Part shown: piece by piece, positions 8,856 through 43,222 of the stretch
Numbering within the stretch: position 1 is the stretch's first letter
How the letters are laid out: every line of letters starts with the position of its first letter
Assembly (NCBI GenBank): GCA_024330215.1
Contig: JANDLU010000020.1
Location: 1-47,290 of the forward strand
Direction: 5' to 3'
Source of the DNA: Candidatus Gaiellasilicea maunaloa
Lineage (GTDB): Bacteria > Actinomycetota > Thermoleophilia > Gaiellales > Gaiellaceae
Length of the DNA: 47,290 bases
The notes under the pieces: model-generated
The model's database searches: none
The model's input: only the letters and a program-made list of their open reading frames with translations
Told to the model about the DNA's origin: nothing
Position numbers and translations under genes: made by a program

Positions 8856-9056
8856 GTGGAGACGAAGCGCGAGGACGAACTCGACCCGACGAAGGATGCA
8901 GACGATGGCGAGCCCGAGCCGCTCGACCCCGAGGATGCGGAAGAGTCCGGGTTCGTCGGCGGGAGCGGCGGGCCGGCCGGGATCATCTACGGCGAGGACG
9001 ACGAGGCGGACGAGCATGGCGACCGCCTCGCAAAGGGACCGGACGAGAATCGCTGA
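8856..9056 (+). CDS. Small acidic hypothetical protein
   Basis: This 66-residue, strongly acidic protein starts at GTG 8856 (METKREDELDPTKDADDGE) behind a near-perfect ribosome binding site AGGAGG at 8845-8850 with 5-base spacing. Composition is rich in Asp, Glu, Gly and Pro with no hydrophobic segment, so it is probably cytosolic and largely disordered. No family is recognised. It lies 36 bp upstream of the GlgC-like gene on the same strand and may be co-transcribed with it. The strong ribosome site is the main reason to accept it as real. Confidence 0.6.
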   Translation: METKREDELDPTKDADDGEPEPLDPEDAEESGFVGGSGGPAGIIYGEDDEADEHGDRLAKGPDENR

Positions 9057-39567: not shown

Positions 39568-40305
39568 ATGACCGAGCCGGCGCCCAGGTACCAGGAGTAC
39601 AACTATCCGAACTTCCTCGCAGGCACGGACGAAGCGGAGTGGGCCGATTTTCAGAGCCGGATGCGCGTCGGCACGACGGCTCCGGACTTCGAGGCGCTTC
39701 GGCTCTCGGACGGCGCGACCGTGCGGCTCAGCGAGTACACGGCCGAGAACACGGTCGTGCTCGAGTTCGGTAGCTACACCTGACCCTTCTGCACCCTGGC
39801 GTGTCCAGGCATGGAAGCACTGGCAGAGGAGTATCGGCCGAAGGGGTTCGAGTTCCTCTTCGTCTTCACTCGCGAGGCGCATCCGGGGGAGAACTTCCCG
39901 CGTCATGCGAGCACGGAGCAGAAGCTCGAGCACGCACGTGCGTTCCGCGATCGCCTCGGAGTGCGGCGCTCGATCCTGGTTGACGACCTCGAGGGAACGG
40001 TTCATCACGCCTACGGGCTCTTGCCCGACATGTGCTACGTGATCGGTCCGCGCAACCGTATCCTCTATCGCGCCGACTGGACGAACGCCGACGCGCTCCA
40101 GATGATCCTCGACTACCAGCTCACGCGCTCCGAGCAGCGCCTGTCGAACGTAAAGGTCGGGCCGAACTACTGCGAGTTCCTCGGCTTCCGGCCGCGCGTC
40201 TGGGACAAGGTCGTGGCGCACATCCAAGCCAATGGTCCTCAGGCCGTCGAGGACTGGAAGGCCGCCATCGAGTACTGGAATCAGCACCCTCCGTCGCACG
40301 GGTAA
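39568..40305 (+). CDS. Deiodinase/redoxin-like protein with in-frame TGA, candidate selenoprotein
   Basis: Reading TGA 39781-39783 as selenocysteine gives a 245-residue protein with Sec72. The first 71 residues end TVVLEFGSYT; the next codons are TGA-Pro-Phe-Cys, then TLACPGMEALAEEYRPKG and FEFLFVFTREAHPGENF. GS-x-T-(U/C)-P-x and the later (Y/F)-x-REAHP are marks of the iodothyronine-deiodinase/AhpC-TSA-like redoxin family, in which the U/C position is catalytic. The same frame stays open for 174 further codons with normal codon bias and family residues (DDLEGTVHHAYGLLPD). A CxxC-type UPFC site fits a thiol peroxidase or reductase. A nonsense mutation or base error is the alternative. ATG 39568 has no strong ribosome site. 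Confidence 0.8.
39784..39809 (+). promoter_or_regulatory. Candidate bacterial SECIS element
   Basis: Eleven bases after the TGA, CCTGG (39795-39799) and CCAGG (39805-39809) form a perfect 5-bp stem with the loop CGTGT, which contains GU. Spacing of 11 nt to the base of the apical stem and a GU in the loop match the Escherichia coli fdhF SECIS layout recognised by SelB. The stem is short, so support is moderate. Confidence 0.55.
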
Positions 40306-40406: not shown

Positions 40407-42158
40407 CTACGCAGCCCGCCGGATCTCGAGCAGGTAGGCGACCATCAGCTCCTCGTCCCCGAAAGTCAGGTGGTAGGCATCGGAAAGCTGCTCGGCGCGG
40501 CCGATCTGCTCCCGATTCTCGGCGAAGAGGGGGCTGAACCGGAAGAACGAGTAGTCCGCGACCTCGGCGGCGAGACCCGCCTGCTCGAGCAGCTCCGCCG
40601 TCCGGAGCTGGCCGAGAATCGAGAGCTGCATCACGTACGCGACGCCACCGGGCGCGAGCAGCCGCGGCAGCAGCCCGAATAGATGGTCGAGCAGGTTTCG
40701 GCCCCAGTAGTCGAGCGGCCGGTGGGTCGCGCGACCGAACGGATCGACGGGCACCTGATAGAGGCTTGCGACGACGACGTCGTAGGCATCCTCGGGGTCA
40801 TAGCCGAAGAGATCGACCTCGTGGGCCGAGACGCGCTCGGCGACGCCGTTGCGAAACGCATTTGCGAGCGTGTTCGCGACGGCGCTCCGCTGGAGGTCGA
40901 TCGCCTCGACCGCCGTAGCGCCGTTGAGCGCGAGCTGGATCGCGAGCAGCCCGGTGCCGCAGCCGACGTCGAGGCACCGTCCGCCCTGGCCGGTGCCGTT
41001 CCGTGTCAGATGCTTCCAGACGAGCAGGCTGCCCTCGGTGGGAACGAAGACGCCAGGCTCGCACACGAGCTCCGGGAACGGGAGCGGAAAGAAGCTGCGA
41101 CCCTGCTCGTCCGTCCACGGCTGCGCCGGAACCGGGCTGCGGCGTCTGGGCTCGCGCTCGGTCTCAGCCGGCGCACTGCGCGGCCGTCCGGCCGTCGTGC
41201 CGGCGATCGCCGCCCGCGCGGCGGCGATGTGCTCCGGCGAGGTGCCGCAGCAGCCGCCGACGATCTGCGCGCCCTGCTCACGCCAGGCGAGCGCGAGCTC
41301 CGCGTATCGCTCCGGCCCTGTCTCCTCGTCGAACCGCCAGCCCGCATCGGAGAAGTAACCGAGGTTGGGGTAGACCCCGAGCGGGAGGTCGGTGAAGTCA
41401 CGCAGCCAGGGGAGCATCCCGTCCAGATGCTCGGGCGGCAGGCAGTTGATCAGGAGCGCCGAGACACCGAGCTCCTCGAAGCGCCGTGCCGCGCGACCGA
41501 AGAGATCGCCTTCGGGACCGCCCCAGTGCTGGCCATAGACGCCGCAGACGCCGTGCCGGCAGCGGCGGAACGAGAGCCAGACCGGGATGCCGCTGGCGAG
41601 CGCGGCCTCGATCGCCCCGATCGTGAAGCCCTCCCGGATCAGCGACATCGTCTCCAGCAGGAGCAGGTCGGGCGGATCGTCACGGAGAGCGCGCAGCAAC
41701 AGCTCGAGCGAGGCCTCCCGCTCGACGCTGTCCACGTCGCCGTTGACGCTGAAGGCGACTGCGCACGCGCCGGTTCGCCCACCCTCGTCGATCGCCTGCC
41801 GTGCCAGTGCGATCCCGAGGCGGGCCACGTCCAGCCAGTGCGTGGTCGCCGAGCGCACGGGCCCACCGGCATCGAGCTCGGCAGCCGCCAGTACCGCCCA
41901 CGTGTTCGTCGAGATCACGTCGCACGGAACATCGACGTAGCGGCGATGCACGTCCTTGACGGCGTACGGAGTGTCGTACAGCGCCCATGTTCCCCAGAGC
42001 CCGCGATCCGAGTTGCGCAGGTCGCCGGCCCGGGCGTGCGCGCGCTCGAGCTCGGTCGCGTTCGCGCCGTCCAGGATCACCGGCTCGCCCGCTTCGAGCA
42101 GGTCGACGATCCGCTCGTATGCGGGTGCGAGCGTCGTCGCCTGAGCCGCGCTGCTCAT
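40407..42158 (-). CDS. Fusion: homocysteine S-methyltransferase domain plus SAM-dependent methyltransferase domain
   Basis: This is a 583-residue two-domain protein. Residues ~1-320 form a homocysteine S-methyltransferase barrel (PF02574): EPVILDGANATELERA, DVISTNTWAVLAAAE, the first zinc Cys in LLINCLPPEHLDG and the paired zinc Cys in GGCCGTSPEHI near residue 302. After a Pro/Arg-rich linker, residues ~370-583 form a class I methyltransferase with CLDVGCGTGLLAIQLALNGA (SAM motif I, about residue 396) and VVVASLYQVPVDP (motif IV-like). One half could make methionine from a methyl donor and the other use SAM, a methyl relay in one chain. It lies 8 bp downstream of the BHMT-like gene on the same strand. 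Confidence 0.88.
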   Translation of the reverse strand: MSSAAQATTLAPAYERIVDLLEAGEPVILDGANATELERAHARAGDLRNSDRGLWGTWALYDTPYAVKDVHRRYVDVPCDVISTNTWAVLAAAELDAGGPVRSATTHWLDVARLGIALARQAIDEGGRTGACAVAFSVNGDVDSVEREASLELLLRALRDDPPDLLLLETMSLIREGFTIGAIEAALASGIPVWLSFRRCRHGVCGVYGQHWGGPEGDLFGRAARRFEELGVSALLINCLPPEHLDGMLPWLRDFTDLPLGVYPNLGYFSDAGWRFDEETGPERYAELALAWREQGAQIVGGCCGTSPEHIAAARAAIAGTTAGRPRSAPAETEREPRRRSPVPAQPWTDEQGRSFFPLPFPELVCEPGVFVPTEGSLLVWKHLTRNGTGQGGRCLDVGCGTGLLAIQLALNGATAVEAIDLQRSAVANTLANAFRNGVAERVSAHEVDLFGYDPEDAYDVVVASLYQVPVDPFGRATHRPLDYWGRNLLDHLFGLLPRLLAPGGVAYVMQLSILGQLRTAELLEQAGLAAEVADYSFFRFSPLFAENREQIGRAEQLSDAYHLTFGDEELMVAYLLEIRRAA

Positions 42159-42166
42159 CGCCCGCG

Positions 42167-43222
42167 TCAGAGCTTCGCCGCGTAGTCCTGGTTGTGCTGC
42201 TTCAGGGTCTCGTCGGTGCCGAGGAACGCGTGCTTCGACATGTCGGCGCTGTACCTGCTCGCGGGCGGGTCCTTGCCGAGCGCCTCGGCGACGCTGCGGA
42301 TGTGGTGCGGCGCGGCGCCGCAGCAGACGCCGAGGTAGTTGACACCGAGCTCGTGGGCGGCCCGAGCGAACTCGCCGAGCTCGTAGCGGTTGCAGACGAA
42401 GGGGTCGAGCGCGGTTGGGAACGGCCGCCCGCCGGGGATGCAGTCGCAGTCCCGGTCCCGCAGCGACTGGAACGTCGGCTCGTCCTCGTGGGTGCGGTAA
42501 GGCACCGGAAGCGCGGCGACGTGACCGCTGACGGCCTCACGGACTGCAGCCACGAGCGGAAGCATCGTCTTCGGGCCGCGGATGCAGTTCAGGCCGACGA
42601 CATCGGCGCCCGCGTCCTCGATTCGCTTGCAGGCCTCCGCCGGCGACCAGCCCTCCCGAGTGGTCGCTTCCTGGTGCATCGCCAGCGTGACGACCGCGGG
42701 CACACCCGCTGCCTTGACGACCTCGGTCGCGATCAGCGCTTCCTCGCCGTACGAGAACGTCTCGGCGATGACGAAGTCGACGTCGGCGTCGATCGCCCAG
42801 GCGACCTGCTCCTCGAACATCGCGCGCACGTCGCGGCGAGAGCTGTGCTCCGGAGCGAAGACGTTCGTGTTGCAGATGTCGCCGGCGAGCAGCGCGTCGC
42901 CCTCGTCCGCGACGCCCTTCGCGGTCGCGAGCGCGGCCCGGTTCATCGTCTCGAGCAGATGCTCCTTGCCGATCAGGCGCAGCTTCTCGCGGTGCGCGTA
43001 GTAGGTGAACGCCTCGACGACGTCCGAGCCCGCGTGCACGAACTCGCGGTGGAGCTGCGCGACGAGCTCGGGGTGCTCGAGCACGACCTCCGGGACGAAC
43101 GCGCCCGCCTGGAGGTAGCCGCGGCGCTCGATCTCGAAGAGGTAGCCCTCGGCGCAGATCACGGGTCCTTGGTCGAGGCGCTCGAGCAGGCCGAGCTTCT
43201 GTCCCACCGCGTTCTCGCTCAT
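42167..43222 (-). CDS. Betaine-homocysteine S-methyltransferase-like protein
   Basis: This 351-residue homocysteine S-methyltransferase family enzyme (PF02574) has AEGYLFEIERRGYLQAGAFV at the N-terminus, SDVVEAFTYYAHREKL, GDICNTNVFAP, the first zinc Cys in VGLNCIRGPKTM and the paired Cys in LGVCCGAAPHHIRS. Betaine-homocysteine methyltransferases have this length and layout, transferring a methyl from glycine betaine (giving dimethylglycine, a precursor of sarcosine) or a related donor. ATG 43222 has AGGAG about eight bases upstream. It is upstream of the fusion methyltransferase and divergent from iclR, whose product probably regulates both. Confidence 0.9.
   Translation of the reverse strand: MSENAVGQKLGLLERLDQGPVICAEGYLFEIERRGYLQAGAFVPEVVLEHPELVAQLHREFVHAGSDVVEAFTYYAHREKLRLIGKEHLLETMNRAALATAKGVADEGDALLAGDICNTNVFAPEHSSRRDVRAMFEEQVAWAIDADVDFVIAETFSYGEEALIATEVVKAAGVPAVVTLAMHQEATTREGWSPAEACKRIEDAGADVVGLNCIRGPKTMLPLVAAVREAVSGHVAALPVPYRTHEDEPTFQSLRDRDCDCIPGGRPFPTALDPFVCNRYELGEFARAAHELGVNYLGVCCGAAPHHIRSVAEALGKDPPASRYSADMSKHAFLGTDETLKQHNQDYAAKL

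Follow-up and report, generated by a model that had tools for sequence, protein, structure and literature searches.

The question raised by this locus is whether a TGA interrupting an otherwise open coding frame ends a gene or encodes selenocysteine (Sec) within one. The locus lies in a 47,290-nucleotide contig of Candidatus Gaiellasilicea maunaloa, and the whole of that stretch is called the window here. Translating TGA as Sec (U), we obtained from 39568-40305 on the forward strand a product of 245 residues with only one UGA, at codon 72, and a TAA stop at 40303-40305, which bears out the first-pass annotation of a single in-frame TGA in an otherwise open frame. A standard ORF caller breaks this gene into two fragments, as it presumably does those of its relatives, and the family is therefore probably under-annotated. 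The ORF list for the window gives only the downstream piece, of 164 amino acids, which starts from an ATG at 39811, 27 nt past the UGA. The features on which the argument rests are the following.

39568..40305, forward strand: coding sequence of a predicted deiodinase-like selenoprotein (translation; Pfam T4_deiodinase, 54.6 bits, cut-off 27; pLDDT 94.3 across the frame)
39781..39783, forward strand: UGA codon 72, putative Sec codon (TGA in 85 and Cys in 16 of 101 distinct members; Sec machinery in the same genome)
39790..39792, forward strand: TGC codon of Cys75, second residue of a U-x-x-C pair (Cys in 72/72 clade members, 0/13 other Sec forms and 0/16 Cys forms)
39795..39809, forward strand: hairpin CCTGG-CGTGT-CCAGG, candidate core of a bacterial SECIS (covariation in 28 relatives; enrichment over synonymous shuffles in Sec genes only; fits the model quoted in PMC13188914)
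39871..39885, forward strand: codons R102-E-A-H-P106, containing the EAHP motif common to animal deiodinases (Dio2/Dio3 alignment; R, E, H and P the same in all 72 clade members)

One gene across an in-frame UGA

The UGA sits in the active-site context VVLEFGSYT-U-PFC, and matches to Pfam T4_deiodinase (54.6 bits), AhpC-TSA (47.8) and Redoxin (40.7) all span the break. A scan of the whole window picked out five TGA codons (562, 9054, 16197, 30362 and 39781) whose sequence on either side has a coding-like composition. Judged by their flanking residues, three of them (562, 16197 and 30362) resemble normal gene termini. The TGA at 9054 comes just ahead of another ORF, which leaves 39781 as the sole site where a single recognised protein family is split. 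With the NCBIfam model for deiodinase family proteins (NF038285) the window protein scores 73.9 bits, below the curated cut-off of 250, and its site, G-S-Y-T-U-P-F-C, does not match the TxxU motif of the Sec-containing peroxiredoxin (PMC1088965). That 39568-40305 is one intact gene read through the TGA is confirmed by the comparisons that follow, and we consider it nearly certain that the product belongs to the deiodinase-like family.

Relatives were drawn from three sources, namely the genome's own kin, a set of named genomes that supplied 80 loci, and 396 genomes of the phylum; their phylum labels are those in the MAG titles. Of 113 related stretches in the named genomes the best 80 were used, so that rare Cys members may have escaped notice. 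In the aligned entries column 72 holds TGA in 90 cases and TGC/TGT in 20. Leaving out four generic thioredoxin-like proteins (WASWC motif, Cys) and a few genes reached twice gave 101 distinct sequences, in which codon 72 is TGA (85) or Cys (16) throughout and nothing else. A tree of these sequences places 72 of them, the window gene included, in one clade (support 99/99) that carries TGA in every member and spans at least five phyla. Exactly 72 Sec sequences have Cys three residues past the UGA, and none of the 13 remaining Sec-type or the 16 Cys-type homologues has this C75. Also invariant in the clade, along with U72 and C75, are R102, E103, H105, P106, D139, H146 and W171.

Within this UxxC clade the closest partner of the window gene is L055 (MGR_bin294, Actinomycetota), and two Acidobacteriota sequences join next (100/100). 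The L055 gene, from a separately deposited assembly, is the nearest relative at about 90% identity and keeps the TGA. Comparison of the two gives a dN/dS of 0.14 before the TGA and 0.07 after it. Third codon positions hold most of the changes in both parts, and purifying selection acts on either side of the TGA. The degraded downstream sequence in close relatives that would have spoken for a broken gene was looked for and is absent, the L055 frame being intact.

A hairpin downstream of the UGA

The hairpin lies where it had been placed by the first-pass annotation, its 5-bp stem starting 11 nt past the UGA (CCTGG at 39795-39799, loop CGTGT at 39800-39804, CCAGG at 39805-39809). A published model of the bacterial SECIS, quoted in PMC13188914, specifies a loop of 3-9 nt with a G among its first two positions, a stem of 4-16 bp, a UGA-to-loop distance of 16-37 nt and a minimum free energy of at most -7.5. 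The window hairpin falls within every numeric limit of that model, with a 5-nt loop, 5 bp, G in second position, a distance of 16 nt and, folded as a 45-nt RNA, -10.6 kcal/mol. This energy is no better than that of dinucleotide shuffles (z +1.2), so that taken by itself the hairpin could be chance. We regard it as real because of the comparative evidence, which consists of enrichment over synonymous shuffles and covariation.

For the first of these, we scored hairpins with a stem of 5 bp or more, a loop of 3-6 nt and a G among the first two nucleotides of the loop, located at about +16 to +30, against within-gene reshuffling of synonymous codons. The thresholds were chosen after the hairpins of some members had been seen, and the same thresholds were applied to the shuffles and to the Cys genes. 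Such a hairpin is present in 65/82 Sec genes, where 21.9 are expected, and in 2/16 Cys genes, where 2.5 are expected; because the sequences are related, these counts are not independent events. This hairpin-specific test took the place of a general free-energy test over the 42 nt past the TGA, which is weak because the DNA is GC-rich (mean z -0.92 for Sec genes and -0.18 for Cys genes). For the second, a gap-free alignment of the 28-sequence clade around the window gene has standard pairs in 95% of the cells of helix 15-19/25-29, as against 21-49% for slid versions of the helix in the same sequences. Three of the five pairs have changed on both sides, position 15/29 for example being G-C, C-G or A-U.

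The common hairpin is absent from its usual place in a number of Sec members, mainly Pseudomonadota (L080, L087, L097, L099-L103, L106, L108, L109, L112, L115 and L122). Several of these fold a different, longer-range GC hairpin further downstream, which is possibly another SECIS type.

The hairpin also bears on the reading in which the UGA is a true stop, yielding a 71-residue product and a separate 164-residue protein from the ATG at 39811. This is what ordinary ORF rules deliver, and an ATG only 27 nt past the UGA lends it some plausibility. Such a stop would nevertheless break one thioredoxin-fold domain apart exactly where its active site lies, the Cys homologues are one continuous chain, and the hairpin is conserved in Sec genes only. 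We consider a true stop very unlikely.

Selenocysteine machinery in the genome

The first-pass annotation had made its Sec assignment depend on selA, selB, selC (tRNA-Sec) and selD, and all four are in the window's own genome (3.85 Mb, 97% complete). The selA gene (528 bits) and an adjoining selB (329 bits) lie on contig C123 and selD (340 bits) on contig C58, each over its curated cut-off. The tRNA-Sec is at the broken end of C123 with its 3' end cut off; it scores 49.5 bits with the covariance model, above gathering, and its anticodon reads TCA (UCA) in the sequence. ARAGORN does not report this truncated tRNA, whereas the covariance model does; ordinary tRNAs for Ser, Arg and Leu are among the other tRNA-Sec matches in the genome. 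Contig C162 has the same 3' half close to its start, joined there to another 5' part (L052:1-85, L054:263-350), perhaps as the result of an assembly or strain mix.

Among the relatives' genomes selA is over the cut-off in 57 of 101. The 29 tested genomes with UxxC members comprise 23 with selA over the cut-off, one with a fragment and five in which it was not found, L055's included, the completeness of these genomes not being stated. Since nine of the ten Acidobacteriota genomes with Cys members also have the gene, its presence does not separate UxxC from Cys genomes.

A Cys codon is only one base away from TGA and the genome is a MAG assembly, circumstances under which a nonsense mutation or a misread Cys codon might be suspected. 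The TGA recurs at the same codon in 85 of the 101 distinct sequences, from separate assemblies, the sequence past it is under purifying selection, and the Sec machinery is present, so that a pseudogene or sequencing error is hardly credible. It is equally hard to credit that a suppressor tRNA or an altered genetic code inserts a different amino acid: any readthrough would leave the same open frame, but the homologues have Cys or TGA only, as in Cys/Sec pairs, the full Sec system is there, and the neighbouring window genes are open without an internal TGA. Decoding of UGA72 as selenocysteine is, on these comparisons, almost certainly the correct reading, and the assignment made by the first-pass annotation, Sec in a deiodinase-like protein, is strongly supported by the machinery, the TGA/Cys column, the Pfam matches and the fold described below.

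A second deiodinase-like TGA gene is found in the same genome (L053:2781-3395, contig C47), with the TGA at the same place. Its motifs are GSYTUPPFR and REAHPEDGW, with the Trp kept and no Cys at +3, and by motif it is closer to the animal enzymes.

Fold, predicted chemistry and neighbours

An AlphaFold2 model built with 50 sequences has a mean pLDDT of 94.3 and a pTM of 0.92. Its top Foldseek matches are mouse Dio3 (E 2.2e-11) and then Dio2 (E 1.2e-10). VIA-align gives Z 19.0 for Dio2 and 18.2 for Dio3, compared with about 15-16 for the thioredoxin-like reductases DsbE and ResA. A sequence profile finds Dio3 at 3.2e-28, with residue 72 aligned to the active-site Cys which the solved cores carry instead of Sec. 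The proton relay of Dio2 consists of Ser127, Thr129, Tyr157, Glu160, His162 and His182 (PMC11592359), to which S69, T71, F100, E103, H105 and H113 correspond in our alignments, Phe100 standing where most relatives carry Tyr.

The window protein thus shares with animal Dio2 and Dio3 (9h48, 4tr3) the fold, the GSxTUP site, the EAHP motif and most of the relay residues. It differs from them in its U-x-x-C pair and in-frame bacterial SECIS, in having no membrane anchor evident in its N-terminal sequence, and in the loop D that carries a Trp after EAHP in the animal enzymes; here the sequence is REAHPGENF, and the loop, in which the Trp is missing, is shorter by about 9-12 residues. With thiol-disulfide oxidoreductases of the ResA/DsbE type it has in common the thioredoxin fold and a redox pair spaced as C-x-x-C in the same place. 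Unlike them it has Sec in place of Cys and the EAHP motif of deiodinases, and both the structural and the sequence match are lower (NCBIfam ResA, 29 bits, cut-off 170).

Closest in kind are the bacterial deiodinase-like selenoproteins of PF00837, with the same Pfam family, Sec place, bacterial SECIS and UxxC form (PMC1088965, PMC2398784, PMC9312934, PMC13188914). Four such sequences, plus Cys homologues, were reported in 2005 and argued to serve another function (PMC1088965), 22 followed in 2008 (PMC2398784), and two reviews list the UxxC form (PMC9312934, PMC13188914). The first sets were marine, and the reviews' UxxC form was compared by description only. Because these proteins are on record the window gene is not a first of its kind, and to call it an undescribed Sec protein, as the first-pass annotation did, was too strong; it belongs to a kind already described in bacteria, UxxC forms included. 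What we add is a complete Sec system in the same genome together with a second deiodinase-like TGA gene, and a Sec-only UxxC clade across several phyla with covariation support for its SECIS. The finding links an animal enzyme family that metabolises hormones with a bacterial branch that is widespread.

In the mechanism we propose, the hairpin, its loop 16 nt past the UGA, would recruit SelB carrying Sec-tRNA-Sec, and UGA72 would then, going by the comparisons, be decoded as selenocysteine. The thioredoxin/deiodinase fold, according to the alignments and model, would set Sec72 next to Ser69, Thr71, Glu103, His105, His113 and Phe100. Sec72 may attack an oxidised substrate, such as a peroxide or a disulfide, form a selenylsulfide bond with Cys75 and be regenerated by thioredoxin or a flavin disulfide reductase. 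This Sec72-Cys75 redox cycle, suggested by motif and fold, is probable. Our best reading is of a selenol redox enzyme and not a thyroid-hormone deiodinase, and the explanation as a whole (a deiodinase-like selenoprotein, Sec decoding and a predicted Sec72-Cys75 selenol redox enzyme) is in our judgement highly probable.

The resemblance to mouse Dio2 and Dio3, the closest solved folds, and the counterparts of most relay residues could also suggest a reductive dehalogenase or deiodinase of halogenated aromatics in place of a general thiol redox enzyme. Against this stand the shorter, Trp-less loop D, the U-x-x-C pair present instead, the lack of halogen-related neighbours in the window and the other function argued for bacterial forms (PMC1088965), and we consider it decidedly unlikely. 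A related proposal concerns the clade: among its 72 members, from several phyla, we found no Cys form, and one of our two scan patterns would catch Cys. It might be an obligate-selenium family whose chemistry, possibly reductive halogen removal or another reaction at which thiols perform badly, would require Se; we think this improbable.

For the selenol redox enzyme that we favor, a weak hint at an electron donor comes from a MerA/lipoamide-dehydrogenase-like flavin reductase within about 3 kb of the gene in five distinct loci (L069, L018/L081, L078/L137, L089 and L067). This proximity is suggestive only, because most of the loci belong to one subclade and two of the matches are weak (32-36% identity), and no flavin disulfide reductase is beside the window gene.

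The window gene stands alone on the forward strand between genes on the reverse strand. To one side are a Liv-type ABC importer, an enoyl-CoA hydratase and an AMP-dependent CoA ligase, and to the other two homocysteine S-methyltransferase-like genes. The first of these two, ORF 40407-42158, combines a part resembling homocysteine S-methyltransferase with one resembling a SAM methyltransferase, and the second (about 42167-43180) adjoins it. The first-pass annotation had placed the selenoprotein in a cluster with the Liv importer and CoA ligases. This is proximity only, on the opposite strand: Liv permease and binding-protein genes adjoin a relative only in L055, the nearest one, and clustering of the flanking ORFs gave no neighbour common across the clade. 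A functional link to the Liv importer and CoA ligases is not supported.

In the named strain Haloechinothrix aidingensis YIM 98757 (L069:930-6687) the UxxC gene is convergent with selB and selA (270 and 414 bits) and has the MerA-like flavin disulfide reductase upstream, which makes the bacterial function directly testable. A search of plasmids gave one distant match, L156:3246-5216 (Mycolicibacterium vanbaalenii plasmid NZ_CP126902.1), where a carboxymuconolactone decarboxylase family gene and a glutaredoxin-domain gene flank the deiodinase-like one.
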